The notes under the pieces were generated by a model. The model was not told where the DNA came from, searched no databases, and was given only the letters and a program-made list of their open reading frames with translations. From NCBI GenBank assembly GCA_029062005.1, contig JAIDQZ010000026.1, positions 1-64,000 of the forward strand: DNA of 64,000 nucleotides, given 5' to 3'. This document shows positions 2,142 to 38,074 of the stretch, piece after piece; within the stretch, counting starts at the first letter, position 1; the number at the start of each line of letters is the position of its first letter. The translations under genes were made by a program, and so were the position numbers. The stretch is from Muribaculaceae bacterium (GTDB taxonomy: Bacteria > Bacteroidota > Bacteroidia > Bacteroidales > Muribaculaceae).

Positions 2142-2159
2142 TATAAATCCTCTATTAAT

Positions 2160-3315: not shown

Positions 3316-3333
3316 ATCGTTTGGGTCTTATGG

Positions 3334-3387: not shown

Positions 3388-3392
3388 AACGT

Positions 3393-4436: not shown

Positions 4437-4560
4437 TACTTTATCAAAATTCTATCATTTATCAGAAGTGCCATATATTCCTATAACTTAAATACAGTTA
4501 TTGCTTATATTCCAACGGGACACCAATTAGAAAGAGCAGATTACAAGCTATCACCGCTTG

Positions 4561-4626: not shown

Positions 4627-4652
4627 GATTTATATCGTTTCAGTGTGTAGTC

Positions 4653-5660: not shown

Positions 5661-5666
5661 AATAGT

Positions 5667-5789
5667 TTAGAGTTCTGCAGCTTTTTTATATTCAGTACTA
5701 TTTATCTCATAATGTTCGGACTCACGAAAATATGTGTCATTTATATCGCTATCTGCATACAACTCGCTGTACCTAATGACGATATCTAA
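5667..5789 (-). pseudogene. Coding-like remnant upstream of abiH
   Basis: Forty codons are open in one frame between two stops and end 7 bases before the AbiH start, with coding-like composition (SELYADSDIND, then HYEINSTEYKKAAEL). There is no ATG, GTG or TTG at a plausible position upstream. It may be the 3' stump of a deleted gene. The assignment rests only on composition. Confidence 0.25.
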
Positions 5790-5860
5790 TCAGATTTCTT
5801 TTCCCTCTTTTTAATGTAATAACCGGTATGTAGAAATTACTTTAGTAATTGTATAAATAT

Positions 5861-6319: not shown

Positions 6320-6321
6320 AT

Positions 6322-8112: not shown

Positions 8113-8113
8113 A

Positions 8114-12304: not shown

Positions 12305-12528
12305 ATGATTGAAACAGACCGAATGATTCTTCGCTCATGGAAGCCGGGGATTTGCATTTGTTTACTGAGATGAATAAAGACGCTCGTGTTATGCGTTATT
12401 TCCCTGCAATCCTGACAGCAGAACAAACGGAATCATTCTACAATAGGATTCAATCGGAGTTTGAGCATCCCAACTTATCGTCCGATTCTCCTTTGCGAAC
12501 GCACGTGCTATATCAAATTGAGTTATAA
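12305..12528 (+). pseudogene. GNAT acetyltransferase, frameshifted and internally deleted
   Basis: The first codons read MIETDRMILRSWK, the start of a RimJ/RimL-type GNAT. A one-base shift near 12343 then moves the frame to one continuing DLHLFTEMNKDARVMRYFP. After about 25 more residues the sequence jumps to SPLRTHVLYQIEL, which is the normal C-terminus of this family (PLRxHVLYR-type ending). Roughly 100 central residues including the acetyl-CoA site are therefore missing. Two independent lesions make it non-functional. It stands 6 bases before the adenylate-kinase-like gene on the same strand and forms a cargo patch in a minus-strand island. Confidence 0.7.
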
Positions 12529-19952: not shown

Positions 19953-19955
19953 CTG

Positions 19956-22607: not shown

Positions 22608-22610
22608 AAC

Positions 22611-22931
22611 TTATTCTTTCTTTGATGCGCGTTGACGATGTTTGAGGCTTAAATCCTGTAATGTGCGTCCGAGGGTATCCTCCTTTGCTAACAATAGAAG
22701 ATCATCGTCAAGTTGCAAGGCATAGAGAACACGGGCATAGATACCGATTGAAACGGTCGGAGAACCTTTTTCAATGCGGTTTATTGTAAGAGGCGAACAG
22801 GTTGCACGTTCAGCAACCTGAGCTATAGAGAGGTTGCGACGCAACCGGGCAAGCTTAATCTGCTCGCCCATAATCGCCATTTTTTGCTCCAGTTTTCGGG
22901 GCAAACTTGTCCCCATTGTACTCTTTGCCAT
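22611..22931 (-). CDS. hipB: HipB-type XRE antitoxin and repressor
   Basis: A helix-turn-helix protein of about 106 residues: LRRNLSIAQVAERA, then TCSPLTINRIEKGSPTVSIG. The ATG at the MAKSTMG codons was preferred to a TTG two codons earlier. It neutralises HipA and represses the operon in the known family. A 15-bp palindrome overlaps its own start codon and is repeated inverted 40 bases upstream, with the promoter in between, which is direct evidence of autoregulation. Confidence 0.85.
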   Translation of the reverse strand: MAKSTMGTSLPRKLEQKMAIMGEQIKLARLRRNLSIAQVAERATCSPLTINRIEKGSPTVSIGIYARVLYALQLDDDLLLLAKEDTLGRTLQDLSLKHRQRASKKE

Positions 22932-22997
22932 GCTCAATATATATTTTAATAGTGCAAAGATAGTAAAAATATTTATTATATGATATATTGAGCATGG
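22928..22997 (-). promoter_or_regulatory. hipBA promoter enclosed by a 15-bp inverted repeat
   Basis: Arms CCATGCTCAATATAT (22928-22942) and ATATATTGAGCATGG (22983-22997) are perfect reverse complements. The -7 box TATCTTTG (22955-22962) lies between them. One arm covers the hipB start codon and the other covers the -33 region. HipB binding at both would bury the promoter. Confidence 0.65.
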
Positions 22998-23063: not shown

Positions 23064-24166
23064 TTATTTGAGGGTGATTGAGTTGGCGGCGTCGCGTTTT
23101 TTCTGATTTACTACGTCGGCATAGATTTGAGTTTTAGCTACGTTTTTATGCGTTAGCATTTTGCTGACGGTGTAGATGTCAGTGCCGTTGCTAATCAGAA
23201 GAGTAGCGTAGGTGTGCCTCAGTCCGTGAAAGGTGATTTTCTTCTTGATTCCGGCATCTTTTAGCTATTTCTTGAATGGCTCGCGTGTATGTGCCCGGCT
23301 GAGACCTTTGAATACCATTCCTCGTCCTTGTTCACCGCAGTAGGATAGAGCTTCATCACTCAGCGGTAATGTCGCTTGCGTCTTGGTCTTTTGTGTGCGG
23401 ATTCGCATACAGTAGCCTCCATCGGGAGATAGTTCTATATTCTCCCAACGCAGTTGCAGGATGTCGCTTATTCGCAGACCTATCATGCAGGCGAAAAGAG
23501 AAGCACGTTTCAGCACGTCCACCTTGCAAGGTGTTGCCGCCAGACGTTTGACCTCTTCGATTTCAAGATAGTTGATTTTCGGTTCTTCCCAATCTATGCG
23601 GTCAAGGTGATCGTTGATGTTTTCTCTTAACCAACCTTCTTTATGGGCGAGTTTCAGCAATGCCCGAAATGTTGACCAATACCCGGCGGCAGAATTGAGG
23701 GATATGAATTTGTCGGACTGTTTCACACGGATTTTCAGGATGTATGTTCTGAAGTCATTGCACAGTCCAATCGTTACATCTTTGATGAGACAGCGACCGT
23801 TGCAGAAGTCCTTGAAGTGCTTATAGACGATTTCCCATTTCTGATATTTCACTTTGGTTTTATCATGGAAATATTCCAGAAAGTCTGCTTGCTTCTTGGT
23901 GCGATCAAGAAAGCCGTACTCCTCGTTGATGATTGCCAATTCTTGCTCGGCTCGGATGCCACGTGCTTTCAGCATGATTTCTTCATTGTAGTCACGCTCT
24001 AATCGGTCTTTCGGTTCGCCATATACAGACCGAGGAACTCCCGTCGGCTCATCTTCTTGATGTGCGGATTCCAGATGGGAGGGTGGTAGTCGAGGTAGAG
24101 CGATACTTTGCCGCTGCGCAGTTTCTCCTGTCGGAGAGTTACTTTTACAATAGTTGCTGATTCCAT
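23064..24166 (-). pseudogene. Tyrosine recombinase (integrase) with frameshift and nonsense mutation
   Basis: The gene starts with the Bacteroidales integrase arm-binding style (SGKVSLYLDYHPP, then MSRREFLGLY). A one-base deletion near 24013 closes the frame after MANRKTD, and the true frame resumes at GEPKDRLERDYNEE. The catalytic part follows with GLRISDILQL (first Arg). At 23262-23264 a TAG interrupts PFKK; downstream the frame continues with HGLRHTYATLL and the nucleophile region TQIYADVV. Every expected catalytic block can be read, but two lesions make the protein inactive. It stands with the excisionase-like gene next to the 25377 attachment-like repeat. Confidence 0.85.
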
Positions 24167-24233: not shown

Positions 24234-25175
24234 TTATAACTCTGTTTTGGGTTTGAACAAAGCCTCTAACTCTTTGGCATTCAGCTTGACATACTTTTCA
24301 CTCCTGAGCTTAGTTATTTTGTATGTCTTGACGTAGTGATAGAGCTGGTCGCGTGTGAGCGAGTATTTCTCCATAGCTTCCGCCATTGAAATAAACTCAA
24401 CGTCTTCGGCAGATTTGGCTCCTTTCGCCACATCAAAGTGATATTTGGAGTAGAATACTTTTGACCCCTCTTTACGTTTGGGGATACCAACTTTCGACAC
24501 AAGGCAGTAGATAGCTGACAGTGTCATTCCATATTTAGACTGAATATCCTCCACCGAGTACCACTCTGTAATTTCTGGATTTTCCTTTATCGCCGAGAAA
24601 AGGCGGTCGATGTGCGACTTGCTGAAATATGCCTTACCTCTGATGATAGTCTTAGGCACATTGTTCTCAGCAACCACCTTGTAAATCCACGAATCCTTAA
24701 CGCCATATTTCTCCCGGATGTCCGCACGGGTATAAAGTTCGGTGATTACAGTATGCTCCTTCGGTTGTCTATTTGTATATGGGGAACCGTCAAGCATCGT
24801 CTCTATGCTTGTCCGTTTTATTAAAGTAAGACGGGAGCTGAGTTTTGACGCAGTTAAGGAACCTCGGTGTATCAGTTTGTACACACCTTGTCTTGTCATG
24901 CCAAGAATCTGCCCGGCTTCGGCTACGGTCAGATAATCTTTCTCTTTAAGTTCAGAATTCTTAGGAGAAGGCACCGCCTTTGACAATTGGATTTTTTGCT
25001 GTCTCAGTCTTTCCTTGTAGGCGTGTTCTGAGCACCGCTTTGAACAGAAGCGGGTAACGGTGGTCTGGGCGGTAAATTGTTTTCCACACCACTCACAAAT
25101 TTTCTCAATTCTAATGTTGCTACTCATTTCTTTTTGTGGAGATTTCTCCGTTGTTTGTAAATGTTCGTAAACCAT
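24234..25175 (-). CDS. Excisionase-like multi-HTH protein with zinc-binding motif
   Basis: A protein of about 313 residues. An N-terminal CEWCGKQF with FCSKRCSEHAYKERL forms a CxxC...CxxxC metal site. It is followed by at least three MerR/excisionase-type helix-turn-helix units: LTVAEAGQILGMTRQGVYKL, then YTRADIREKYGVKDSWIYKV, and YSVEDIQSKYGMTLSAIYCL. Such proteins accompany integrases in Bacteroidales elements and direct excision or regulation. The ATG overlaps a palindrome, so self-control is likely. An alternative start lies 16 codons later, before SSNIRIEK. Unlike the integrase, it is intact. Confidence 0.75.
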   Translation of the reverse strand: MVYEHLQTTEKSPQKEMSSNIRIEKICEWCGKQFTAQTTVTRFCSKRCSEHAYKERLRQQKIQLSKAVPSPKNSELKEKDYLTVAEAGQILGMTRQGVYKLIHRGSLTASKLSSRLTLIKRTSIETMLDGSPYTNRQPKEHTVITELYTRADIREKYGVKDSWIYKVVAENNVPKTIIRGKAYFSKSHIDRLFSAIKENPEITEWYSVEDIQSKYGMTLSAIYCLVSKVGIPKRKEGSKVFYSKYHFDVAKGAKSAEDVEFISMAEAMEKYSLTRDQLYHYVKTYKITKLRSEKYVKLNAKELEALFKPKTEL

Positions 25176-25191
25176 TGACAACTATTGTCAA
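25175..25191 (-). promoter_or_regulatory. Palindrome at the excisionase-like gene start
   Basis: TTGACAACTATTGTCAA is a perfect 7-base inverted repeat around CTA and abuts the start codon. It may be an operator for the HTH protein or a recombinase-binding arm. Confidence 0.45.
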
Positions 25192-25269
25192 CTTTCTCCA
25201 CCACCTTGCTGACGCGAGGGGTGAAATGAGTCGCTGTCGTACAGAATCCGTACAAAATGGTGCATAAAA

Positions 25270-25303
25270 ACGCCTAACACTGACAGTTATCAGCATTAGG
25301 CGT
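25270..25303 (-). terminator. Intrinsic terminator
   Basis: A 14-base stem with two mismatches (ACGCCTAACACTGA and TCAGCATTAGGCGT), a 6-base loop and a following T5 run in minus-strand reading. It ends transcription coming from the OLD-like side before the excisionase-like gene. Confidence 0.7.
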
Positions 25304-25376
25304 TCTCGAATGTATTAAGTTTTATCGCTCAGTAATAGTCAATTGCTATCAATACAAATCATTGACGATCAACTGA

Positions 25377-25391
25377 TTACTTGCCGATGCA
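25377..25391. repeat. Attachment-site-like copy of the mnmE 3' end (att-1)
   Basis: TTACTTGCCGATGCA is identical to the last 15 bases of mnmE including its stop codon (minus strand TGCATCGGCAAGTAA). It lies about 200 bases from the excisionase-like gene. Flanking bases on both sides differ from the mnmE copy, as expected for a crossover core. Confidence 0.7.
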
Positions 25392-25420
25392 GTGTGGTAA
25401 ACTATCGTTGAATCAAGGAA

Positions 25421-25608
25421 TTACAGTTTAAAAGGTTCAACCTCAATTTCTGTAAGTAACTGAATTACAAATCGTGAGTGGAAACTTAGTGCATGTCGGC
25501 GAAGCCAGTACGCGTTGCCGTAGGCAAAGTTATCCACCGTCAAAGTAAAACCATTGTCTTTTTCTTTTATCCGAAGACTATCTCAGTCTCCATCTTCAAG
25601 CCACTCAT
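25421..25608 (-). pseudogene. Small frameshifted gene next to the attachment repeat
   Basis: A start MSGLKMETEIV opens at 25608 and closes after 13 codons. One frame over, 53 codons run as RIKEKDNGFTLTVDNFAYGN, then WLRRHALSFHSRFVIQLL and a stop. The composition is strongly protein-like and the two frames join at about 25570-25580, so a single-base indel split a gene of about 62 residues. I do not recognise the family. It is the last gene of block A, immediately inside the att-like repeat. Confidence 0.55.
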
Positions 25609-25705
25609 GGCTTGCTGCTTTCAGTTACAAAATTAGCAAAAATCTATAGATACACAATGGATAGATTCTATATTGTTTAGTAAAAATACTCATATATCCC
25701 ATATA

Positions 25706-27403
25706 TTAAGAATTGAAAAAATCGAGAATCTCTTTGACAAATGAAACTAATACAGGTGAAGCTTCCTTTTTATGAATTTTTTCTAAGGCAGGTACTATCC
25801 ATTTATTTTTTTGTGTAGTACCAACTGCCATCCATCCCTCCAGTTCTCCAACTGGAACTATGAAAACTCCTATGGATTTCAGTTTATCAAGCAAATATTT
25901 AACCTCATCCCTAATGTTATCATCAAATCCCGTTATTCCTTTTGATTTAATCTCACTCCAAGAGGTTATCCCTTTTCTAATTCTGTTCAAAGCTCCTTTC
26001 GCTCCATCAAGAGAATGTTCCTTTTTCTCTAATTGAACTAAAAGTGTTTTGATTTCATTCGTCAATTCCTCAAGGGCTTCATTATCAGACTTTCCTATTA
26101 CAGTAGAAGCAATTTTGTTTCGGAGATTAATAATTTCTTCAGTAATGTTTCCGGTCATGGACATAGATGCTATTAACTTGGTTAGTTGCTCCTCACTATT
26201 AAGCGCATCAATGTCGGCTATTACAGCTACTGGAATACTTGCATCTTTTAATAAAGTCGCTACGGTATGAAGAGTCTGCTTATTTTGCGAGTGGATAAAC
26301 AGCACGTCTTCGTTAGAATTGTGATTTATTGTAGCCACACTTTGATAAACAGCTCTATCCGCATCAGCTTCACATACTACAACACCTCTGTAGAAAACAC
26401 TCTCCACCACTCGTTGGCTTGAAAGCAAAGGATTTTCAAATAGGGCTTTAGTCGAATTTGATTGTAGAGCAGTAAAAGTTGTATTGTTTGCAGATCTATT
26501 TAATCTATAAATATCCACGTTATTTCCACTTGCCAAAATCCCTGACAAGAAGTTTGCATTATGTGTACTTATAAGCAACTGACCTTCAATAAGATCTTTA
26601 TGATCTCCAATCCATTTACCTAGAAATCTCGCTTGAGCTGGATGAAGAAAAGCTTCTGGTTCATCTAACAAAACAATACGACCTTTCGAAAATAGTAATC
26701 CTAGTATAATACCAACTAAACTTCTGAATCCATCGCCCTGATCTTCAATTTTGGCTAAATCTTTAGTAATGGGATATGCTTTTCTTGGATCATCTGGAAT
26801 ATCTGGCATCTTTTCAGCGACTCTTAAACTAAGTATTGTCATTGCACTATAATCTAATGCAATATCCATTTTAAAAGCATCTTTAAAGGCATTCTTAATT
26901 ATTGGATCAATTTGATTATCTAAAAATAATGATTGTAATAGGTTGGTAGGATTATTTGTTTCTGGGTTAACTGAACTAACAGAACTTGCTAATGACAACC
27001 TATTGGAAGAGCTTAAATCGGAAACAAAGAATTTTGTTAGATATCCATATATGTACTCTTTCCGACTTTGCTCAGAATTATATAACTGCGCATAATAATT
27101 ATAATCAAAATCGCAAGTGTCATTATTTAAAAGGTTGCTACACAGTCCGGATATTACTTTATGTCCAAGCGTATTTTTACTGTCTGATGTGTTCATCCTT
27201 TTTAAAAAGGAATCGAAATCATTATCCCATTCAAGTTCTATATCATTAATAATGACTGCTCTTGCCTGGGACCCTCTTTCCAAATAACTTTTAATATCTC
27301 TTAGTGTTTGAGACTTTCCTACATTATTAGGTCCAACCAAGACGGTAATGTCATTTATGTTGAGATCAATACCATTCCTGAGCTTTATTGTTTTAATTTT
27401 CAT
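25706..27403 (-). CDS. OLD-like AAA ATPase with TOPRIM nuclease domain
   Basis: A single polypeptide joins an ABC/SMC-type ATPase and a TOPRIM domain. Walker A GPNNVGKS is at 24-31, the signature-like QGDGFRSL at 222-229, Walker B LLDEPEAFLHP from 245 and the switch STHN at 279-282. The TOPRIM motifs are CEADADR with E345 and VIADIDA with D397 and D399. OLD-family nucleases, including GajA of Gabija, cut DNA in phage defence. No UvrD/GajB-type helicase is adjacent; a KAP NTPase is upstream 98 bases away. It could be a class 1 (stand-alone) OLD protein. Confidence 0.85.
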   Translation of the reverse strand: MKIKTIKLRNGIDLNINDITVLVGPNNVGKSQTLRDIKSYLERGSQARAVIINDIELEWDNDFDSFLKRMNTSDSKNTLGHKVISGLCSNLLNNDTCDFDYNYYAQLYNSEQSRKEYIYGYLTKFFVSDLSSSNRLSLASSVSSVNPETNNPTNLLQSLFLDNQIDPIIKNAFKDAFKMDIALDYSAMTILSLRVAEKMPDIPDDPRKAYPITKDLAKIEDQGDGFRSLVGIILGLLFSKGRIVLLDEPEAFLHPAQARFLGKWIGDHKDLIEGQLLISTHNANFLSGILASGNNVDIYRLNRSANNTTFTALQSNSTKALFENPLLSSQRVVESVFYRGVVVCEADADRAVYQSVATINHNSNEDVLFIHSQNKQTLHTVATLLKDASIPVAVIADIDALNSEEQLTKLIASMSMTGNITEEIINLRNKIASTVIGKSDNEALEELTNEIKTLLVQLEKKEHSLDGAKGALNRIRKGITSWSEIKSKGITGFDDNIRDEVKYLLDKLKSIGVFIVPVGELEGWMAVGTTQKNKWIVPALEKIHKKEASPVLVSFVKEILDFFNS

Positions 27404-27501
27404 AACCTTAACCTGTTGTAATTATTCGATATAAATGTTTGAGTGGATAGCCAATTTCCATAAGTATGCCGGCTATAAGAATTACTGATATTCCTCAAAT
27501 C

Positions 27502-28857
27502 TTAATTTTTAGTTATCATTGAGTATAGGTATATGTGGTCAAGAACTGTTTCAAGTCTAGGGTGGAAGTCCATAGAATCAATGGCGGTCAGTCTCATCCC
27601 GGAATATAGCATTTGGCATGCATCATCTGTCATTGTGTCTTCTTGATCAATCCATTCCTCAGGAGATTCACGTGTATTTATTAGATGCGCATATCTTCCA
27701 TATAGACCTAAGATTTGCCCTATGAAATAATTATAATCATCAAGATAATTGGGGAATATATTGATAAGATTTATGTATAGATCCTTTATACTATACTTCT
27801 TATGCTCAATCTCTGATAATATTAATGGTTTAAATTTATGAAGCAATAGGAAGAATGCCACATATTGGGCATAATCCTTTACAGAGAATGAAGAACAGAT
27901 TATGTATAAATGCCCATAGAATTTTTCAAGTTGCCTTAATGACAATCCGTTTTGGTGAGCCATATTTACAACAATCTCATTTATTTCATCCTCTTTTATT
28001 CTATCGAAATTAAAGAAAGGTTTAATTTCAAATTTTTCAGAAAGATACTCGCAATATGATTTATAATTGGGAGCGGGCAGATTGAATTCAATATCGATGA
28101 ATCTTCGAAGGTATTCTTCCGCATCAATATCTGGCGAATGGAAGTATCCTTTAACGGAGTTACGGAGATGTTTTTTATCTAAAGATAAAACGAAAACAAT
28201 ATCAGGAATTGAGAAACAGTGTTTTAGACGTTCCAGAACCTTTACAGCATAGTGCGGATTACAACGATCCAATTCATCAATAAAAAATATTATTGGTAGT
28301 TGACACATCTCATCTTTTACATATGAGCCCTCAATATACTCAGATAAAGACCGTTTGAAGTCATTTAGCCCTTGTTCCTTTTCCCTGTAAGCTTGTAATG
28401 ATTCTCCTCCGATTTTGGCACATTCATCTATTGATGCCTTTACGGCATCTTTTAAAGAGTCACTGTCAATTCCTGTTGTCTTGTGCAAAGCTCCTTTTAC
28501 AATTTCTGCTGTACCAGCTATAAGAATTCGTCCTAGATTGGATTTGATGGCTTCTGGTAATTTTTTTCTTTTTCCAAACTCTGATAATAACGCGCATAGT
28601 GGATCATCTGCATAGTCCGATTCCCAAGCATTGAAGTGCAACGTTACAAAATGTTCCTTTCGCAATAAACAGGAAAACATTTTTATAAAGGTTGTTTTAC
28701 CTGTTCCCCAAGGAGAATCTAGTGATACAACAGCACCTTTATCGAACTTCTTGAATATATTTTTCAACATTACAGCTACTTGCTTCCTGTTAAGTTTATC
28801 ATATTTGAATGGATCATTCTCTGGAATGTCTAATTGTAATGAATAAAAATCTGCCAT
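27502..28857 (-). CDS. KAP-family P-loop NTPase
   Basis: Walker A PWGTGKTT is at about 49-56, the FNAWESDYADDP segment that marks KAP NTPases near 75-86, and Walker B FFIDELDRC at 191-199. Unlike many KAP proteins, it has no transmembrane insertion. KAP NTPases occur in defence loci as sensors or switches of downstream effectors. The neighbouring OLD-like nuclease gene on the same strand is the natural candidate partner, though the 98-base spacing is wider than usual for coupled subunits. Confidence 0.85.
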   Translation of the reverse strand: MADFYSLQLDIPENDPFKYDKLNRKQVAVMLKNIFKKFDKGAVVSLDSPWGTGKTTFIKMFSCLLRKEHFVTLHFNAWESDYADDPLCALLSEFGKRKKLPEAIKSNLGRILIAGTAEIVKGALHKTTGIDSDSLKDAVKASIDECAKIGGESLQAYREKEQGLNDFKRSLSEYIEGSYVKDEMCQLPIIFFIDELDRCNPHYAVKVLERLKHCFSIPDIVFVLSLDKKHLRNSVKGYFHSPDIDAEEYLRRFIDIEFNLPAPNYKSYCEYLSEKFEIKPFFNFDRIKEDEINEIVVNMAHQNGLSLRQLEKFYGHLYIICSSFSVKDYAQYVAFFLLLHKFKPLILSEIEHKKYSIKDLYINLINIFPNYLDDYNYFIGQILGLYGRYAHLINTRESPEEWIDQEDTMTDDACQMLYSGMRLTAIDSMDFHPRLETVLDHIYLYSMITKN

Positions 28858-28920
28858 AAGAAATTTCGCTTTTTATGTAGTTTCATAGTTAAGGATTATA
28901 TCTGCCCCAAAGTGTAATTT

Positions 28921-29415
28921 TTATTTTAGGATAATCCATTTGCCATTTTTTCTAGAACCTTCTCTCTTAATAAAGCCAAGTCTCTTCAGTTCTCTTATTG
29001 AACGTGTAACTGTGGATTCAAAAATTTTAAGAATTTTCATAAGTTCTGTTGCTATAATTTCAGGTTGACTTACAATTTTATTATAAACATCTTGAAGTGT
29101 TCCGTTCAGTTGGTTTATACCGTCATTTATACTGTCACTATCAACTTTAATACCGTCATTAATTCCGTCATGAGGTCTATAAATACCACCAATTGTAGTA
29201 TTTATACGGTCATTTTGATTTTCTTTGTCGTTTTCTTTGTCGTGATTATTAATTTCTTTGTCGCTGCCTTCAGAAGTCATAAAAGTGGAAGATACGCCCT
29301 CTTCTCCTTCGTGGCAAGGAATACGGACGAGGAAGGAGAGACAATATTCGTCTGTCTCAAAAGATGCTGCCGGGGAACCGTTATGGGCTAACTCTCTCTG
29401 TATTGTGGGTATGCC
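28921..29415 (-). pseudogene. 3' remnant of a second AlbA/ATPase-type protein with winged helix
   Basis: The readable frame begins GIPTIQRELAHNGSP and FETDEYCLSFLVRIPCH, which is the C-terminal end of the HATPase part of AlbA-type (Schlafen-like) proteins. It then passes through an N/D-rich linker with repeated D-x-I-N words and ends in a winged helix (IIATELMKILKIFESTVTRS). A TGA stop precedes GIPTI. The intact winged-helix part from an internal ATG (29280) could still be expressed as a 119-residue regulator. It lies 65 bases downstream of a full-length relative, so it is probably the rest of a deleted paralogue. Confidence 0.6.
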
Positions 29416-29480
29416 TCAGCGGATCTTCAACATTTGTCGGTAGTGCAATTTGGATATTCATTTAAAGTTCTTATTAGCCT

Positions 29481-31052
29481 TTATTGTTTTCTTCGGTACT
29501 TCTGATTGGGATCATTAGGATTGTCGGGGATGGTGCGTTCCAATACAGCAATCTCTATCAATGAGGTTATATATTTTTTACGGTTCTTTGACTGATTGGT
29601 TATTCCCAATCTATCCATAATCTCCTGAGCAGTTCTTGGTACTGAACAGAAATTCCGTATATCCTGCTCCTTCTTAGTTAACTTCCGAGTAACTAAGTTA
29701 TCCTGAGGTTGGTTACTATTGTTTTCAGGTTGGTTAGTTACTTGCTCACTTGTCAAAGTATCAGGAACTAAGTTACCTTGGTTAGTTACTTGGTCAACAT
29801 TGCGAGGAATCGTGATGACGAACTCGTTGGAGGAATGGGTGATTTCCCGTTGATCGACGCCATTTGAGAAAATCGCGTTCGGATCATACTCGAGGGCTCG
29901 ACGCACTCCACTGCCTGCGCCTGTATAGGGGAGTAGGTAGTTGGCATTTGTAAAGAGGAACATATTGCGAGGCATCGATGTTCCGTTTTTTATATCCTCC
30001 ACCGTAAGTCCATTCGGTAGCGCTCCAGGGCTATGAATTTCCACGCGATTGTCAAAAATGAAGATGCGGATAGGAGCCTTGATGCTTAGTGAGCGATGCA
30101 CTAAGGCGTTGACTGTATATTCTATTAGACTTTCGTATGGAATTTCCAATTGACCAAGTGAATTGAATTCCTTTTCCACCTGTACTTTACGAAGATTGCG
30201 AGTAAAGAAATTCATGATAGTCCTGAACTGATGAAGGATATTTCCTTCTATCTCCATATCGTGCATCTTGTCTCGGAACTGAGTGCCACCGACTGAGTTA
30301 CCCAAGAAACTGATACACTTGGCAGTCATGACAGGAAGCCATCGCTGAGTGTATTTCCCGAAAAGTAGCATGGCTGCTACCGTCAGTTTTCCATCGGGAC
30401 GAATGAATCTCAGATTCTTCAACAACCTTTCGATTGTAGTTCCTGTAATGACAAACTCAGCCATCTGATCAAGCGAATAATCCTTCATATTGAGCTCGTC
30501 AATATGTTTCCCCTTAAACACAGGTGCGAACCTACTCATCAGATACAGTTTGATAGTGTCTGCATCAAGGTCGTCTAGGGTAGCACCCGGCACAGCAGCT
30601 TCATCAGGATCGAAATTCCCGCATTCACTCATCATCTCAGCAAGTTCCGAATTGTCGAACACCTTGCGCTTGTCAGCACCATTCTTAACCCATATCACAC
30701 CCTTGTTGTCGTGATACGGCTTATTCTTACCCTCTGGAACAGTGGCGATAACTACCGCTCCTCCGGTTACCGGAGTATTCTCAACCTCAATCAATACATT
30801 TGGAATAACATTCTCAGATGCGATATTTGTCAAGAGATTAGTAGTCTCCTGTAGTTCTTTATAAGATAGCGCATTAATCTCACCAGATTTGTCGTTAATG
30901 CCTATGATGAGCCTTCCGCCACGAGAATTGCTGAACGCAACCATCTCGCAGCCGATTTCATACTTATCGTCCTTGCTTACGATTCGTTCTTTGAACTGCA
31001 CCTGCCCAGCTTCTGCCAAGTCTCTCAATTGAAGTATATTTTGCTCTGTCAT
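29481..31052 (-). CDS. AlbA_2 (Schlafen-like) DNA-binding protein with HATPase and winged helix
   Basis: Residues about 1-125 form the AlbA_2/Schlafen-type module (FKERIVSKDDKYEIGCEMVA, then SNSRGGRLIIGI). The middle holds an HATPase-like fold (YESLIEYTVNALVHR) and GAGSGVRRALEYDP near 383. A repeat-rich linker with VTNQ words follows (about 418-455), then a winged helix. The family is widespread and usually annotated as ATP-binding or transcriptional regulators; members occur in defence islands. The 523-residue length is normal. Confidence 0.8.
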   Translation of the reverse strand: MTEQNILQLRDLAEAGQVQFKERIVSKDDKYEIGCEMVAFSNSRGGRLIIGINDKSGEINALSYKELQETTNLLTNIASENVIPNVLIEVENTPVTGGAVVIATVPEGKNKPYHDNKGVIWVKNGADKRKVFDNSELAEMMSECGNFDPDEAAVPGATLDDLDADTIKLYLMSRFAPVFKGKHIDELNMKDYSLDQMAEFVITGTTIERLLKNLRFIRPDGKLTVAAMLLFGKYTQRWLPVMTAKCISFLGNSVGGTQFRDKMHDMEIEGNILHQFRTIMNFFTRNLRKVQVEKEFNSLGQLEIPYESLIEYTVNALVHRSLSIKAPIRIFIFDNRVEIHSPGALPNGLTVEDIKNGTSMPRNMFLFTNANYLLPYTGAGSGVRRALEYDPNAIFSNGVDQREITHSSNEFVITIPRNVDQVTNQGNLVPDTLTSEQVTNQPENNSNQPQDNLVTRKLTKKEQDIRNFCSVPRTAQEIMDRLGITNQSKNRKKYITSLIEIAVLERTIPDNPNDPNQKYRRKQ

Positions 31053-31283
31053 GTTTGTTATTCATTGATGTATTGTTAGAAGGTATTCATTGAATGGGGT
31101 ATGATGCAGAAAAAGTGGAACTTCTGACTTTAGGATTTTCTTTGGCTCATGAGGTTAAACAGAAGTAGCGAAACGCCTTTTTATCCTTCGTCGAAGTGGA
31201 GAAGAGGATGTTTTTCATCTTTTCTTGCAGAAGGCACATCAGTCATATAAAACCACAGAAAGTCCTTTTACCACATTTTGTCT

Positions 31284-31718
31284 TTACGATCTAAGTTGTA
31301 TGGTTTCTGTTACACAGAATTCTTTCTTATTTTGCACCCATTTTATAAAAATTGACATGAAATCCGGTGCGCTTGTACAAAGAAGAACGTTAATATCAAA
31401 GCTGCCATGTCTTTTAAGGCAAGGGAAAGTCTTTGAATCATCCCAATGAACATATACTCCTTCTGTTTCGGGAATAATCACTTGAACTTTTTCAGCGTGA
31501 ATATCTGTCTCTGAAGCGTTGTAAACTCGTATTCGCCAACCTTTCCCTTGTTTAAAGAAGTTAGCTCGTATGTTTGCTGCTTGTGGGTTATACTTGTGTT
31601 TTAGCCAAAGGAATAGCTTCCTGATACCGTTAAATATCCCAAATACTACTCCACCAATGGCTATCACTGCTCCGATAGCGGCTGACCAATCTTGGATAGT
31701 CCAATTGTTCATTTCCAT
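31284..31718 (-). CDS. Membrane-anchored protein of a zinc-ribbon pair
   Basis: A 144-residue protein with one transmembrane segment (about 13-36, AAIGAVIAIGGVVFGIF), a basic stop, and a C-terminal beta-rich soluble domain (about 50-144). It overlaps the zinc-ribbon gene by 10 bases, so the two are translationally coupled. No family is recognised. Membrane anchoring with a cytosolic zinc-ribbon partner resembles effector/sensor pairs in defence islands; that reading is inference. Confidence 0.6.
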   Translation of the reverse strand: MEMNNWTIQDWSAAIGAVIAIGGVVFGIFNGIRKLFLWLKHKYNPQAANIRANFFKQGKGWRIRVYNASETDIHAEKVQVIIPETEGVYVHWDDSKTFPCLKRHGSFDINVLLCTSAPDFMSIFIKWVQNKKEFCVTETIQLRS

Positions 31719-31963
31719 TTTTTGAAAATGGAATTTAGCTCTTTTAAAAGAGCTGATTTAACTTCCTGTGCCATATCATCTTTAATTGATTCCAGTTCCT
31801 CAGAATTATAATCCAATAATTCATCTTTACCGCCGGGGTACTCACGCCCACAATTTGAACATTTAATGAAACTTTTATCCTCATTGTATTCAAACATATC
31901 CTGACACCCACATGTGGCGCATCGTGGATGGAAATCTCTTGTTATATTTTCAACTTTACTCAT
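31709..31963 (-). CDS. Zinc-ribbon protein
   Basis: An 84-residue protein with two CxxC knuckles, CATCGC and CSNCGREYPGG, spaced as a treble-clef zinc ribbon (residues about 15-43). A C-terminal amphipathic helix follows (VKSALLKELNSIFKKW). It starts 30 bases after the S-subunit stop, so it may be carried on the restriction-modification transcript. It is coupled to the membrane protein by a 10-base overlap. Confidence 0.65.
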   Translation of the reverse strand: MSKVENITRDFHPRCATCGCQDMFEYNEDKSFIKCSNCGREYPGGKDELLDYNSEELESIKDDMAQEVKSALLKELNSIFKKWK

Positions 31964-31993
31964 ATTTTAGTTTATCTCTAAGATTATTTAATT

Positions 31994-33637
31994 TTATTGA
32001 ATACCAGTAATCTTCGGTGAAGTTGTATTAGGTTCAATAAATACTGGTGCTCCATTGATATGATAGAATAAAGAAGAAAGAGTCTCCTTCACATTCAATG
32101 GGAATTGATTAAAATTACACTCATCTCCTAGGGAAAATACCATATACTCTTTTCCCGGGGATTTACGAGGATATCCCAACCCACTCAATTCTTTACTGGA
32201 CATCTTTTGAATCCCTTTAATCTCATATACTGAAACTCTGGAGTTGTCTTTAAGATTATACAGATATAGTCTGACTGCATTTGCGAAACACTCAGGTTGA
32301 TCGGAAGCTGAACCTTTACGTCCTCCTAAACGGATATTGTAAAGATGGTTACTCAGTATCCATTCAAGATGCTTCTTGTCGCGGTAACAGCCTATAATAA
32401 TAGTTTCCTTTATGGTATTCCGCTGGTAAATTTCGTAAGGTTCAGCAGCTTGTTGATAAATCTCATTATCTTCTATTGAGTATTCACTTTCATCAATAAG
32501 AGTCTGAGTAGTTGAAATTTCTAAATCTTTGTTGTTCAGAATATCTTGAATACATAGTTTAGTTTGTGAAGATATTAGATTCTCGATGAAATCATAATCT
32601 ATGCTGCCATCTTTTTTTACAGGTAGCATCAGAGAGTCTTTACAGATCTTGGATTTTGAAATAGAATCCCCCCAATGATACTTTGGCTTTAGAGACTTAT
32701 ATAAAGCGGAAACCAAAAAGAGTTGGGTATTTCGCTTAGGGACATCTATGTCTTTATAATAAAGGGCTAGATTATGGCTATCATTAGAAAAATAATCATT
32801 TTCTTGATAAGTAATAACCATCGTCTTTCCTCCAATCATAATAGAATTACCTTTTTCAAGGAAATTTGAATCGAATGAGATATACGATTGAATGGAATTA
32901 TTGGACTCACCGGCACCTACATAAGGAATATTCCCACTATCCGGCACTACCTGCGCTTTCAAAATACTGTGTGTGTTGACTACGATGAAAGCTCCATTTT
33001 CACCACTGATGGGATATTCTCTCCATTCTACACGATTTTGTCGGATGGCAACGAGCGCAGCGAGTTCGCCATCCGATAAAATCGTATCGGATAGCCCGGC
33101 TGCTTGTAAATATGCTTTGAGCGTCGCCACACGCTCCGCTTTGAGCGTCGCTATGTAGCGACGCATAAAATCAAAAGCTAGTTTCCCTTTGGTGATAGAT
33201 GGCAATATAATATAGTTGTTCTTTAAAGTTGGTTTAGTAGCCATGTTTCCATAAGAATATACTTTAGGGAGATATGACATTGCGGCTACTAAATATAATC
33301 CAACAGCTTCATCACTTAATACTCCACCAGAAAATGAAAATACATGATTATGCGTAGCTAACTTATATGGTTCTGATCTATAATAAGCATTTCCAAAGAA
33401 ATCTATTGTTATGGAATTTGCAGTGAAAATTCGAGCATTTCGATCGGTATATCCCTTAATCCCTTGATTTGTAACGCCAGAGTTAATAAACATACAACCT
33501 CTCCCATTGATATCCGAATTTTGAATATCAACGTCACCGCTTTGCGGCTCGTCAAACAAATCTCCAATTTTGAATTTTTCAAATGTGCCCCCGTCATCAA
33601 GGAATTCTTGAGTTAATTTTGAGAGACGGGGGCTCAC
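31994..33637 (-). CDS. Specificity (S) subunit of a BcgI-like restriction system
   Basis: Two target-recognition domains (about 15-150 and 205-345) of the type I/IIB S fold are seen, each with the KIGDLF/EYPI-type entry and PKVYSYGN- or PKYHWGDS-type loops. The spacer between them contains an 8-residue tandem repeat (ATLKAERV, then ATLKAYLQ). About 145 residues after the second domain (from about 400) form an extra beta-rich domain that ordinary S proteins lack. The start codon overlaps the stop of the methylase/nuclease as ATGA. The S subunit sets the DNA sequence recognised. Confidence 0.85.
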   Translation of the reverse strand: MSPRLSKLTQEFLDDGGTFEKFKIGDLFDEPQSGDVDIQNSDINGRGCMFINSGVTNQGIKGYTDRNARIFTANSITIDFFGNAYYRSEPYKLATHNHVFSFSGGVLSDEAVGLYLVAAMSYLPKVYSYGNMATKPTLKNNYIILPSITKGKLAFDFMRRYIATLKAERVATLKAYLQAAGLSDTILSDGELAALVAIRQNRVEWREYPISGENGAFIVVNTHSILKAQVVPDSGNIPYVGAGESNNSIQSYISFDSNFLEKGNSIMIGGKTMVITYQENDYFSNDSHNLALYYKDIDVPKRNTQLFLVSALYKSLKPKYHWGDSISKSKICKDSLMLPVKKDGSIDYDFIENLISSQTKLCIQDILNNKDLEISTTQTLIDESEYSIEDNEIYQQAAEPYEIYQRNTIKETIIIGCYRDKKHLEWILSNHLYNIRLGGRKGSASDQPECFANAVRLYLYNLKDNSRVSVYEIKGIQKMSSKELSGLGYPRKSPGKEYMVFSLGDECNFNQFPLNVKETLSSLFYHINGAPVFIEPNTTSPKITGIQ

Positions 33638-35679
33638 TGAAAATTTACGCCTTCGCGGTTCTGAAGAATTGTACTAACTTTCCACGAGAGATAATCAGCT
33701 ACTGTTTTACGGAAATCAGCTTCCTGAGGGATTGGATCAATCTTCTTATGCTTATCTACCGTCCAGTCATTACCATTTAGGGTAATAGTATCGAGATTAA
33801 TACAATCTTTTAGATATTCAGTTTTTGGCTTACGGTCGAGTACCAAGTCTACAACTTCGGCATATCTCTCTATGGCGTTATCCGTGTCGCGTAGATTAGT
33901 CGCAGAGTTAGCTTTTTTGCGATTCTGACGTGTATAGCCATCATTAGAGAAATCTATAAACTTAACTAGCCGTAGTGGATCATGAGGTGTACCTACTTCA
34001 AACACGTAGACGGCAGTTTGTACGCTTGCTTTCCCTTTGAATAGGTCACTCATGTGGATAGATGCAATCAACGAACTATGTTCAAGAATACGTTTTGTAA
34101 AAGGCAACCCGTTTCCGCTTCCGGCATTTTCTTGAATCAGCACAGCTGCTCGGCCGGATTTCATCTTGCTTAATGCTTTTTCGACAAAAATCATACCTTT
34201 GCCTTCTGCCGAATACGGCGGATTGAGAAGAAAGACGTTTGCGGGGAAATCTTCCCCTTTATGGCTCCCTTGCTCATATTGTCCTTCATAAGTTAGAGAA
34301 TCTTTGTAAAGAATATTGGCTGAACCATCATTCATTAATAACATATTGAGCACAGCCAACATATATATGTCTGGCAATTTTTCTATACCAAGAAGCTGTT
34401 CAGCTTTAATTTTTTGTATTTTCAAGTCACGAGCTGATGGATCACCTTTAAGTTTCTCTTGGGCGTCTGAAATCATCTGCTTCATAGCTGCTATTAGAAA
34501 TCCAGCACTACCAAGAGCATAGTCCCATACGAATGAATCCATATTTACCTTACATATAGACGCCATCATTTCACATACATAGCGCGGTGTAAGAACTACA
34601 TCATTCTGATTACCATCAGGAACTTTTACCCAAGCATTTAAAGTGTTAAACAGTTTTCCCGTAAAATCAACGTGTATTTTTTCATTGAAGAGGGGTAAAA
34701 TATTCTTATCTAAGAACGCATAAATACTTTTTAATGGACTTTCGCCGTTAACTGGTTCATAGAGTTTTGTATGAATAAATACCTTAGATAGTTCATTTAC
34801 TATCATCTCTCTCTTTTCATCCGGGAGATTCTTTTTAGATAGATAAGACTTTATTCTGTTAAGAATGATTTGACCATCGTGCGAGAATTGGTCTGATATA
34901 CTTCTGAGTTCAGAGACAGCAAGAGGTGCAACTTGATTTTTTATTCCGATACCAGCCATGATAAGACCTGAGATAAGTTTGACACGATAGTCTTCACTTA
35001 TCTGGTGCACATCATGCATCTCTTGATTAAGTTCTTTTAATTTGTCTTCAATTTGAAACTCCCATTGCTTCGTTCTTTGCTCTTGCTCTTCATCTGAAAG
35101 TTCTAGATTTTCAATTCTATCTATCAACTCGTCAATATTGGAAGAGGAGAGAAAGGAGAGCGAGGTATAATTCCCGATTTTCTTAGGAATTAATAGATTG
35201 TTTTTTGAGACATAATATACCCCATACTCGACTGTGCGATTGCCGGCCTCATCGTCATAACCATTAATACCGATTGCAATTACTTCTTCATAAGATTGAG
35301 AGTGTCGAATTATGGCTTCTGCGTAATGAACCGCGCCATTTACAGCATATTTTGTGCGATACTGGTGTAACGCTTTTCCAGAGGAGTCTGACATAGCAAC
35401 ACCTCCAAATTCATCTAATTTAATAAAATCACCCTGTGTGCCTTTAACCTCAATCATAACAGGAATCTTGCGACCAGTTGATGAGGTTAAAAAAAGCTTT
35501 ATATCCGGGAAGTTATTTCCTCGTCCTCCGCTTTTACTTGGTGCGGTAGTTAACGCATTTGAAATTTCTGGATTGATTTCCTCAGTTTTTGCGTATGCAT
35601 GAATACCGAGACGATGCAATTCCGCTTTTGCTAATGTTTCTATCTGTTCCTCTATACTTTTGGGTGATTTCTTTGCCAT
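33634..35679 (-). CDS. BcgI-like fused restriction nuclease and N6-adenine methyltransferase
   Basis: The N-terminal PD-(D/E)xK nuclease shows PD at 58-59 and EVK at 77-79. A helical connector (about 190-350) follows, then the gamma-type N6-adenine methylase domain: motif I region DYALGSAGF (386-394) and catalytic NPPY (486-489). One polypeptide with both activities plus a separate S subunit matches type IIB/IIG enzymes such as BcgI, which cut on both sides of the site. The 681-residue length agrees with BcgI-A-type proteins. Confidence 0.87.
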   Translation of the reverse strand: MAKKSPKSIEEQIETLAKAELHRLGIHAYAKTEEINPEISNALTTAPSKSGGRGNNFPDIKLFLTSSTGRKIPVMIEVKGTQGDFIKLDEFGGVAMSDSSGKALHQYRTKYAVNGAVHYAEAIIRHSQSYEEVIAIGINGYDDEAGNRTVEYGVYYVSKNNLLIPKKIGNYTSLSFLSSSNIDELIDRIENLELSDEEQEQRTKQWEFQIEDKLKELNQEMHDVHQISEDYRVKLISGLIMAGIGIKNQVAPLAVSELRSISDQFSHDGQIILNRIKSYLSKKNLPDEKREMIVNELSKVFIHTKLYEPVNGESPLKSIYAFLDKNILPLFNEKIHVDFTGKLFNTLNAWVKVPDGNQNDVVLTPRYVCEMMASICKVNMDSFVWDYALGSAGFLIAAMKQMISDAQEKLKGDPSARDLKIQKIKAEQLLGIEKLPDIYMLAVLNMLLMNDGSANILYKDSLTYEGQYEQGSHKGEDFPANVFLLNPPYSAEGKGMIFVEKALSKMKSGRAAVLIQENAGSGNGLPFTKRILEHSSLIASIHMSDLFKGKASVQTAVYVFEVGTPHDPLRLVKFIDFSNDGYTRQNRKKANSATNLRDTDNAIERYAEVVDLVLDRKPKTEYLKDCINLDTITLNGNDWTVDKHKKIDPIPQEADFRKTVADYLSWKVSTILQNREGVNFQ

Positions 35680-35682
35680 AAT

Positions 35683-35937
35683 TCAGTCATTTTTAATGCC
35701 GTAAATAATTAAAGGTTCACTTGCTAATGCATGACTTTCAGTGGGATTAAGCAGGCGACGGATGTCAATCTCTAATAGTGAGGCAATTGACTTTAATGTG
35801 TATAAATCAGGTTGTGATGTGTTAGTACACCATTTAGATACAGTTGTCGGGTTAACATTTAACTGTTCTGCCAACCATTTATTAGTTCGTTTCTTTTCAC
35901 ATAAAACTGTTTTTATGCGATTAATATCTTCATTCAT
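35683..35937 (-). CDS. XRE-type controller protein of the restriction system
   Basis: An 84-residue helix-turn-helix protein (NKWLAEQLNVNPTTVSKWCT, then SQPDLYTLKSIASLLEID) placed 3 bases before the restriction-methylase gene. Controller (C) proteins time the expression of restriction after methylation. A consensus promoter lies 24 bases upstream. It is the first gene of an operon that runs through the enzyme, the S subunit and probably the zinc-ribbon pair. Confidence 0.8.
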   Translation of the reverse strand: MNEDINRIKTVLCEKKRTNKWLAEQLNVNPTTVSKWCTNTSQPDLYTLKSIASLLEIDIRRLLNPTESHALASEPLIIYGIKND

Positions 35938-35960
35938 TTCTTAATTATTTGTTTTGAACG

Positions 35961-35991
35961 CAAATTTAGTGAAATTATCATTTGTCACCAA
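35961..35991 (-). promoter_or_regulatory. Promoter of the restriction-modification operon
   Basis: The -7 box TAAATTTG (35961-35968) and TTG (35989-35991) are 20 bases apart on the minus strand, upstream of the controller gene. Confidence 0.5.
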
Positions 35992-36018
35992 GGGTTTATG
36001 CTCAATAACATAGAAAAC

Positions 36019-36043
36019 CCGACAAAGGGCACGTCCTTGTCGG
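36019..36043 (-). terminator. Terminator at the right end of block A
   Basis: A hairpin with seven paired bases at its base (CCGACAA/TTGTCGG) and further pairing inside, flanked by AAAA and TTTT on the two strands. It can act in both directions. On the minus strand it follows the truncated membrane gene and insulates the restriction operon. Confidence 0.65.
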
Positions 36044-36064
36044 ATTTTCAGGATAAAACGATCA

Positions 36065-36475
36065 CTATTTGTCTTCATGAAGGTATTTCAGGCGGTCAAG
36101 GGAATGGGAGCGGATGAGGGAGTCGCGGAATGCTATGTCGTGCTGCCAGTGTCCGGTTTGCCATTCACGGTACTTCTTGGGGTAGTTCTCACGGTAGAAT
36201 TGCCCGAAGAAGATTGCCTCGGCATTTTCTTGATGCCAGCGGTCAAGTTCCTCTATACGCTGCTCATACTTGTGCCTTTTGTTTGTAGCAGAGTTACATA
36301 CCATAACGCTTCCTGTAAGGCAGATACCGACAAGTGCACCGATGCCGATGACAATAGGGAAATTGAGTTTGATCAGATTCTTCAACCTTATGAAATTAGT
36401 GTCAAGGCGGTTGCGGTCCTTATCGCAGAGGTGATTGTTCTGCGTGTCCACAAGATCGCGGATCCATGGTCGCAT
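36065..36475 (-). CDS. Membrane protein, probably 5'-truncated, at the island border
   Basis: A 136-residue reading with one transmembrane span (about 40-61, FPIVIGIGALVGICL) and a basic, aromatic C-terminus (FFGQFYRENYPKKYREW). The frame stays open upstream of this ATG for about 16 more codons without another start, so the original gene was longer at its N-terminus. No family is assigned with confidence. Size and layout resemble mobilization-region membrane proteins of Bacteroidales elements. Its place between two terminators and 170 bases from mnmE suggests the stump of an element gene cut at the junction. Confidence 0.5.
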   Translation of the reverse strand: MRPWIRDLVDTQNNHLCDKDRNRLDTNFIRLKNLIKLNFPIVIGIGALVGICLTGSVMVCNSATNKRHKYEQRIEELDRWHQENAEAIFFGQFYRENYPKKYREWQTGHWQHDIAFRDSLIRSHSLDRLKYLHEDK

Positions 36476-36593
36476 CTGAAGAGTATGACTTAACTCGGGT
36501 AGCAGACGAGCAACAAATGTGGTTCAAAAATGGAGTGAAAAATAGGTAGAAATGGGTTTTGCCGATTAGATTGGCAATCTTCGGGCAAAAGAA

Positions 36594-36616
36594 AAGGCGC
36601 TCAAACTGAACGCCTT
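36594..36616 (-). terminator. Terminator next to mnmE
   Basis: Arms AAGGCG and CGCCTT around CTCAAACTGAA, followed on the minus strand by CTTTTCTTTTG. It lies 42 bases beyond the mnmE stop, on the island side of the 15-base repeat, so the present mnmE terminator was brought by the element. Confidence 0.65.
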
Positions 36617-36658
36617 GACTATTATTTCAACTTATATTTACCTGTCTTTAACTGCGGG

Positions 36659-36673
36659 TTACTTGCCGATGCA
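36659..36673. repeat. mnmE 3'-end copy of the attachment repeat (att-2)
   Basis: TTACTTGCCGATGCA contains the mnmE stop codon and its last four sense codons (CIGK). It is identical to the copy beside the excisionase-like gene. The two copies are direct repeats 11.3 kb apart. Confidence 0.7.
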
Positions 36674-38074
36674 AAATTTGGAGAATATGGAATTCAGGAG
36701 GTCTGGGGTGGTGATGGCGCCGGTGAGGGAGGTGAGGGCTGCGGTGGCTTCGCGTATGTCCATGGCTATGAAGTCGGCGCTGGCGCCTATTGCCATCTGG
36801 TCGAGGGCGCGCCGTAGGGCTTTCCCTGCTTGCAGTAGGTCGCCGTAATGGCGGGCATTGGTCAATAATAGTTCCTTCTCCGGATCGAAGTCGCTTGTCG
36901 TAGCCTGTTTCAGTATCTCTCGAAGTGCGTCGAGTCCTTTACCTTCTGCTGCTGATATCTCAATTATGTTTTTTTTGTCGATCGAAAAAACACCAGATTG
37001 CAGAGATGTGCTGAGTGTGTTGCGGACTATGTCAATGGATGTTTCTGACATTCCCGGAGCAGATGTCTTGGTAATGACAGGTATGATTTTTTGATATGTG
37101 TCAAGTCCGGATAATGATTCGCTCATTTCTTCTATCTGTTCTATGAGCGGCGCTGTGGGATCGATGAGCCACAGAACTACCGATGCCTGGTTTAAGCGTT
37201 TGCGGGCTCTTTCTATCCCTATAGTCTCTATTCTGTCTGTTGATTCGCGGAGTCCTGCGGTGTCTATGAAACGGAACAGCACTCCTTCTATCTCACAAGT
37301 GTCTTCAATTATGTCGCGTGTAGTGCCCGGAATGTCGGATACTATTGCTTTCTCTTCCTGCAATATCGCGTTGAGTAATGTTGATTTACCCACATTCGGC
37401 ATCCCGGCTATTACTACCGGTACGCCTTCCTTTATCGCTCTGCCGGTGGCATAGGAGTCAGTAAGGCGGTCAATCTTCCTGAGAAGCAAAGTGGCGATCT
37501 CTATAAGGCGGCTCCGATCGGCAAACTCAACATCCTCTTCCGAGAAGTCGAGTTCGAGTTCGAGTAGAGAAGCAAGCTCTATAAGTTTGTCGCGCAATTC
37601 ATTAAATTCTTTCGAAAAGACACCACGTGTCTGCTGCATGGCGAGCCGATGGGCTGCCCTTGATGAGGAAGCGATGAGATCAGCCACTCCTTCGGCAGAT
37701 GCGAGATCCATTCTTCCGTTGAGATATGCCCGGCGTGAGAATTCCCCCGGTTCTGCGGCGTGCGCGCCCTTGCGGAGAAGGAGGTTTGTGACTTCTCGTA
37801 TAATCCATGGGGAGCCATGAAGTGAAAATTCTACTACGTCCTCACCGGTGAAAGAGTTGGGCCCACGGAAAATCGTGGCAACTGTCTGGTCGAGGACATT
37901 ATTTGACTCGTCCATTATATAGCCGAGGTGTGCGGTGTGGGATTGACAGCCGTTGAGAGTCGTGCCTTTCCATATGGAATCAGCTATGGAAAGTGCATCC
38001 GGACCTGACAGGCGAATTATGGCAAGGGCACCTTTACCTTTTGGAGTGGCGGGGGATGTTATGGTGGTGTTCAT
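36659..38074 (-). CDS. mnmE: tRNA modification GTPase MnmE
   Basis: MnmE works with MnmG to form the aminomethyl or carboxymethylaminomethyl group on wobble U34 of tRNAs. The N-terminal tetrahydrofolate-binding domain starts TPKGKGALAIIRLSGPDAL. The inserted G domain has GMPNVGKSTLLNAI, the switch TTRD and DTAGLRES. The C-terminus ends FCIGK, the invariant Cys motif. The 471-residue length is standard. The last codons double as the attachment-like repeat, and integration leaves the protein intact. It is the first chromosomal gene after the island. Confidence 0.97.
   Translation of the reverse strand: MNTTITSPATPKGKGALAIIRLSGPDALSIADSIWKGTTLNGCQSHTAHLGYIMDESNNVLDQTVATIFRGPNSFTGEDVVEFSLHGSPWIIREVTNLLLRKGAHAAEPGEFSRRAYLNGRMDLASAEGVADLIASSSRAAHRLAMQQTRGVFSKEFNELRDKLIELASLLELELDFSEEDVEFADRSRLIEIATLLLRKIDRLTDSYATGRAIKEGVPVVIAGMPNVGKSTLLNAILQEEKAIVSDIPGTTRDIIEDTCEIEGVLFRFIDTAGLRESTDRIETIGIERARKRLNQASVVLWLIDPTAPLIEQIEEMSESLSGLDTYQKIIPVITKTSAPGMSETSIDIVRNTLSTSLQSGVFSIDKKNIIEISAAEGKGLDALREILKQATTSDFDPEKELLLTNARHYGDLLQAGKALRRALDQMAIGASADFIAMDIREATAALTSLTGAITTPDLLNSIFSKFCIGK

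Follow-up and report, generated by a model that had tools for sequence, protein, structure and literature searches.

The repeated 3′ end of mnmE

Why does the 3′ end of mnmE occur a second time, beside an excisionase-like gene, in the genome of a Muribaculaceae bacterium? The window analysed here is the whole stretch of 64,000 nucleotides at positions 1 to 64,000 of contig JAIDQZ010000026.1 (assembly GCA_029062005.1, 152 contigs), and window base 1 is the contig start. An original prediction, made from the letters alone, held that the repeat marks attachment sites at mnmE around an integrated block. The target gene mnmE (36659..38074, minus strand, as are the features of the two blocks described below) was identified from its open reading frame (ORF) and translation and encodes 471 amino acids ending in C-I-G-K. 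The 15-mer TTACTTGCCGATGCA, whose reverse complement encodes these last four codons and the stop, was found in exact copies at 36659..36673, the mnmE-side attachment core (attR-like), and at 25377..25391. Both are oriented as mnmE and lie where they had been predicted, at the mnmE stop codon and beside the excisionase-like gene. The block between the two cores (25392-36658) is referred to as block A, and the block left of 25377 as block B. With a probability of roughly 0.87, we consider that the mnmE 3′ end is an attachment site (attB) at which block B and then an integrative mobilizable element (IME) of another arm type, S2, would have integrated. Both would then have decayed, leaving A as a cis-mobilizable element (CIME).

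The frequency of the 15-mer was estimated in the own genome and in shuffled sequence. An exact-copy search of all 3,061,004 bases found 2 copies, none beyond the two in the window, for a simple arithmetic expectation of ~0.006. Dinucleotide shuffles of the window contained an exact copy in 0/100 cases, against 2 copies in the real window. The repeat is as unlikely by chance as had been supposed and is not common in the genome; it is real, and the 15-mer is an attachment core. When up to 3 mismatches were allowed, the pattern was no longer special, the window holding 5 core matches and 8/100 shuffles equalling that number. In 330 kb made up of 22 genus stretches and the window, the degenerate core turned up behind mnmE two more times in the same orientation as mnmE, whereas the opposite orientation gave none. 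A third core candidate at 15113 was rejected, because it has two mismatches, lies within the zacC ORF and belongs to a class of loose matches equalled in 8/100 shuffles.

The ends of block A were compared with other genomes of the window's genus. The mnmE-side arm of A (36488..36658), whose type was named S2, is ~95% identical over its first 169-188 bp from the core to the sequence behind mnmE in G014, G031 and G033, the longest matches being 169 bp, 186 bp (95% identity) and 188 bp, respectively. An S2 arm, complete to varying degree, opens 6 of the 56 genus loci read. At the far end of A, up to and into the core (25378..25643), the 266 bp reaching the core at 25377 are 90% identical to the far end of an element in G033, which is likewise flanked by two cores, 18.6 kb apart. 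Over the last 84 bp, A matches the far end of the S2 element of G031 at 98% identity; that element is followed by a changed core and, beyond it, by a third type of arm that has separate helix-turn-helix (HTH) and integrase genes. Because the same two ends enclose different contents beside different neighbours in the relatives, A is taken to be a discrete element, and on this comparison it is an integrated one. The G+C content is 37.5% in A, 39% to the left of A and 45.7% from mnmE rightwards.

Block A as the remains of an IME

In the G031 relative, the genes from the core inwards encode an excisionase-like HTH protein, a tyrosine integrase, a VapE-like protein, a relaxase (PF03432), MobC (PF21983/PF05713) and a conserved small protein. 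Immediately behind the arm of A, a 51-bp mobC-like piece (36433-36483 region, 80% identical) is fused to 342 bp of the small gene (94%) in one ORF (36065..36475), and the two parts match separate places of the G031 element. The mobC piece being joined directly to the small gene behind the arm, this ORF is read as the scar of at least two deletions. When nine proteins of the G031 IME were searched against A at E 0.01, the small gene alone gave a match, and the HTH and integrase matched B instead. The integrases of relatives matched only B, and Pfam searches with ten A proteins gave no recombinase, so that the block between the repeats is recombinase-free as proposed. The G031 and G033 elements at mnmE that share the ends of A bear relaxase and MobC genes. 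What characterizes a CIME was found in A: both attachment (att) ends are kept, integration and transfer genes are gone, and an IME with the same ends occurs at the same site. As far as its sequence tells, A is an eroded deletion derivative of a relaxase-bearing IME, and it may still be mobilizable in cis if an S2-type integrase is supplied. This origin goes beyond the original prediction, as do the finding that the arm type of A (S2) differs from that of B (S1) and the much wider use of the site.

Block B opens with an S1 arm (25182..25376; arm comparison), a type found directly behind mnmE in 13 of the 56 genus loci. It is followed by an intact excisionase-like HTH gene (24234..25181, full open frame; PF12728, TIGR01764; 93% identical to that of G069) and then by a tyrosine integrase gene (23070..24166; Pfam). 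The integrase is 93-94% identical to an intact relative of 368 amino acids but its frame is shifted once and interrupted by an in-frame stop: the matches to residues 1-49 and 49-367 of the relative lie in two frames, and the second-frame ORF stops at 23265 although the protein match continues to 23070. The integrase of the neighbouring element is broken, as had been claimed; the reading that it lacks its C-terminal part was rejected, since the 3′ part is present beyond the in-frame stop. B thus has the integrase that an IME carries, in broken form. At E 1e-30, no S1- or S2-type integrase besides this copy was found in the own genome. The relaxase and MobC of G031 had no match in the window, and the outer end of B may fall beyond it.

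Insertion and stacking at mnmE in relatives

A single best mnmE match was obtained in 83 of 101 genus genomes, and 18/101 had none at E 1e-60. Arms were read at 56 of the relatives' 82 loci, the remaining 26 being used for contig extents alone. A type-1 HTH and/or integrase lay behind mnmE in 20/56 loci. A distant (family-2) integrase, 28-31% identical to the piece in B and with no HTH match, lay there in 5/56. Contigs ended less than 1 kb downstream of mnmE in 45/79 genomes and less than 1 kb upstream in 1/79, which fits strain-to-strain variation at one point. This count covers 79 of the 83 genomes, leaving out the own genome and G009, G011 and G055, whose contigs end within mnmE; in 18 rows, other locus searches supplied the position of the 3′ end. 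The family-2 elements behind mnmE (L031, L036, L074) have a conserved block of six genes in common, which is probably a prophage or plasmid-like replication module.

Elements stacked at the core were found in several relatives. In D. muris DSM 103720, an S1 element lies beside mnmE and a second core follows 32.8 kb on, then an S5-type HTH and integrase. Isolate-104 shows the reverse order, with S5 adjoining mnmE and S1 following a core 31 kb further on. S3 comes first in Isolate-013 with S1 20.3 kb on, and G031 carries S2, then S3, plus a third core. In G078, mnmE adjoins a family-2 integrase, and an S1 unit follows a core at a distance of 51 kb. The A-core-B anatomy, predicted as one element stacked against a second, is thus matched by stacking in relatives, in both orders among isolates. 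Contig C7 of G107 (L231-L233) has three cores with S3, S1-like and S5 arms, 59-61 kb apart, and possibly represents a longer array.

Empty sites were found in another family than that of the window's genus, among relatives of a Draconibacterium record. The native flank was strongly matched in 8 of 41 genomes, the starting one included, of which 2 are empty and 6 have inserts. G118 and G133 are the empty sites, with mnmE, one core and the native flank. G111 and G116 have a second core, 35.3 and 30.5 kb on, respectively, which the native flank follows immediately, so that the inserts sit exactly at the core. The distance from mnmE to the flank is ~94.6 kb in G121, 43.3 kb in G122, 42.4 kb in G114 and 30 kb in G106. 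A core was found 1.7 kb (G106) and 5.1 kb (G114) short of the native flank, and the flank-side core of G121 carries a change. In G122, the stretch examined showed no core, and the sequence read behind mnmE contained neither type of integrase. Type-1 integrases lie behind mnmE in G111 and G121, and family-2-like ones in G114 and G116. G140 gave a weaker native-flank match, and its mnmE is at the contig end. A downstream sequence running on unbroken across the repeat in island-free relatives would speak against integration; the pattern was the one that integration predicts, one core and then the flank. Both the empty sites and the insertions at the same base that the original prediction called for are therefore on hand, and its proposal that the mnmE 3′ end is an attachment site is borne out by the arms, far ends, tandem junctions and empty sites of relatives.

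The mnmE flank of G054 and G089 was considered as a native empty site within the genus and rejected, because related sequence occurs elsewhere in 27/101 genomes and at 12310-12494 of the window. This piece of the window is a remnant of the gene behind mnmE in these two genomes and recurs in many genus genomes.

Integrase relatives beyond the genus

Genomes of named species were scanned for integrase relatives, and the best 80 of 251 were kept, a sample and no census. Among the best 48 of 251 (44-100% identical), 34 lie behind mnmE (33 by tblastn and one by a visible gene tail), two of these with a more changed core; 7 lie behind a core without mnmE, as tandem junctions, 5 are truncated where the contig begins, and 2 were left unassigned. 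The other 32 of the best 80 (42-44% identical) form one clade and show neither mnmE nor the core in the stretch at hand. In an integrase tree built by a quick method, with long branches flagged, the site label (mnmE versus other) needs one change. The clade that does not adjoin mnmE (L157-L188) comes mostly from Prevotella and relatives and is near-identical across many species.

The record titles include Muribaculaceae, Barnesiella, Alistipes, Prevotellaceae, Draconibacterium and Marinifilum; two records titled Clostridia may be binning errors. On the tree, short branches connect the integrases L123-L129, yet they come from records titled Alistipes, Prevotellaceae or Bacteroidales, in which MnmE is 40-54% identical to that of the window. 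This speaks for transfer between families. In all, the elements at mnmE use two distantly related integrase families, at least 5 arm types and one shared core. When 19 large proteins of other elements at the site, chosen by size, were compared with PADLOC at E 1e-20, 9/19 matched (BrxC, BrxP, type I restriction and methylation, ThsA, PDC-S68, TmtA, MkoA) and 10/19 did not.

Restoration of the gene tail

At the core, the final codons of mnmE and the stop come from the element. As every element brings its own copy of this tail, in most cases with a terminator behind it, mnmE stays intact. Within 140 bases, a hairpin plus T tract (≤ -8 kcal/mol) was present in 18/19 testable type-1 loci, in 0/5 family-2 loci and in 1/90 mononucleotide shuffles. 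The test had been run at first on 110 bases, where 21/49 arms and 2/98 shuffles reached ≤ -8 and the S1 hairpin was cut off; the length was then extended to 140 bases and the tail rule loosened. In the window, terminator-like hairpins lie at 36590..36620 in the S2 arm and at 25268-25305 in the S1 arm. The hairpin sequences differ between arm types. The C-terminal cysteine motif of MnmE is needed for function, which would explain why hosts keep the site.

Proposed history and alternatives

In the history that we favour, the mnmE 3′ end would serve as attB for a family of Bacteroidota tyrosine integrases. Block B, with its S1 arm, excisionase, integrase and a cargo of XRE/HipA and ZacABC genes, would have integrated at mnmE first. 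An S2-type IME would later have recombined into the core at mnmE and displaced B, a core being left at each boundary. Decay would have followed, in which the integrase of B acquired its frameshift and stop, while two or more deletions removed excisionase, integrase, VapE-like gene, relaxase and most of mobC from the S2 IME. The outcome would be A, two att ends around defence cargo. The cores, both ends of A, the scar, the broken integrase, the anatomy and stacking of relatives and the empty sites in relatives of one record are read from sequence; from them we infer the order of arrival, the decay in place and the mobility of A given an S2-type integrase.

Several points weigh against this history. 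The core at some junctions differs from the mnmE copy by up to 4 bases, and the mnmE-adjacent relative L156 has no visible core in the stretch examined. The window's genus yielded no clean empty site, and the left (outer) end of B was not found, the contig beginning at window base 1. The two integrase lesions may reflect a local misassembly or base error in a 152-contig genome.

The same features could be produced if A had evolved as a satellite, with no integrase or relaxase of its own, and borrowed helper S2-type integrases through the att ends it carries. The kept att ends, the open cargo ORFs of A and an own genome whose only S1- or S2-type integrase is the broken copy (E 1e-30) would suit such a satellite, but the fusion of mobC with its neighbour gene is what a deletion leaves, and the S2 element of G033 is also partly decayed, with a shortened integrase. 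Moreover, no A-like integrase-free layout occurred in the 101 genus genomes, where pieces alone match. We regard the satellite as unlikely. Still less probable is a metagenome assembly artefact in which the islands of two strains were joined at the shared core: the genome consists of 152 contigs and genus assemblies often break just behind mnmE, but like junctions stand in isolate contigs (D. muris DSM 103720, Isolate-104, Isolate-013), and a 15-bp repeat is short for a false join. That the repeat is a chance or duplication match without an element boundary can practically be dismissed, for although the repeat is short and often nearly matched when 3 mismatches are allowed, the exact-copy counts (0/100 shuffles, only 2 copies genome-wide), the change of relatives' sequence exactly at the core and the matching ends in G031 and G033 contradict it.

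Relation to known systems

The proposed integration of B and an S2-type IME at mnmE, with A as the remnant, has counterparts in known systems. NBU1 integrates at a tRNA-Leu gene. The integrase and relaxase anatomy of the G031 relative is in common with the Bacteroides IMEs NBU1, NBU2 and Tn4555, whereas A has neither integrase nor relaxase; in PMC5704250, NBU2 is placed at a tRNA-Ser gene and Tn4555 at two preferred sites, unlike the elements here, which lie at mnmE. The same review describes tandem accretion of CIMEs and IMEs, in which an element without integration and transfer genes keeps both att ends and is stacked at a gene 3′ end. Block A resembles this in the kept att ends, the lost integration and transfer genes and the stacking at a gene 3′ end, and differs in its site, mnmE in Bacteroidota, and in its defence-like cargo. 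There, too, SGI1 and MGIVchHai6 of Gammaproteobacteria are stated to insert at the 3′ end of trmE, the older name of mnmE, which agrees with what the original prediction stated of SGI1. The present elements share this site but belong to another phylum, and their integrase is of the Bacteroidetes type (PF17293, PF13102, PF00589), with an excisionase-like HTH gene next to it. The island of PMC6764341 lies at an Arg tRNA gene. Among the open-access titles and abstract openings listed, no description of an mnmE/trmE 3′-end site in Bacteroidota was found. The Bacteroidota version of the site thus appears undescribed, while IME/CIME accretion and the use of mnmE/trmE by SGI1 are already known.

We lean slightly towards the wider view that, throughout Bacteroidota, elements carrying defence genes land and stack at the mnmE 3′ end, from which eroded cargo like A could be re-mobilised by a matching integrase. 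Since the core encodes the conserved C-terminus of MnmE, the host could hardly lose the site by mutation, and since arm types stack in any order, eroded cargo such as A would stay between usable cores. The mnmE 3′ end is likely a hotspot for defence-gene exchange in Bacteroidota. It would offer one predictable address for variable anti-phage genes in a dominant gut order, metagenome assemblies included, and matched cores, arms and integrases are available for testing how defence islands grow by accretion. The gene end at which SGI1 inserts in Gammaproteobacteria serves elements of another phylum as well.

Cargo of the two blocks and neighbouring sequence

Besides the scar, the remaining content of A looks like defence-like cargo. 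From the mnmE side, it consists of an XRE-type regulator (35683..35937; Pfam HTH_3), a type IIG-like restriction-methylation protein (33634..35679; PADLOC REase_MTase_IIG, E 1.6e-174; PF02384), a specificity subunit (31994..33637; PF01420, PADLOC Specificity_II), a Schlafen/AlbA_2 domain protein (29481..31052; PF04326), a KAP NTPase as candidate defence gene of PADLOC group PDC-S20 (27502..28857; Pfam, PADLOC) and an OLD-like ATPase/TOPRIM protein (25706..27403; PF13304, PF20469; PADLOC Old). Rfam gave no match at the gathering threshold in 11000-40000.

An inverted-repeat-like sequence of ~75 bp lies near the far end of A (window 25470-25544; G000:C142:170-245). Copies 80-83% identical to it occur at no fewer than 8 other places in the genus, and a weaker relative was seen between the HTH and integrase genes of S2 elements.

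The cargo of B comprises an XRE and HipA-like pair (21363..22937) and ZacABC genes (14830..21245; PADLOC). Closely related XRE and HipA genes, 96% and 91% identical as a pair, stand with the start of ZacA behind the second core in G032. A 415-amino-acid protein (13211..14458) recurs in S1-type elements and is a probable B gene; its carriers include G086 and G059, where it lies behind mnmE, and G033, where it lies behind a second core. This gene was rejected as native flank, as it was found in 6/101 genus genomes at E 1e-20. Within the leftmost 12 kb of the window, positions 1302-11850 hold additional defence-like genes, for a PDC-M33A/B/C-like set, a C5 methylase, AbiH and Fic domain proteins.

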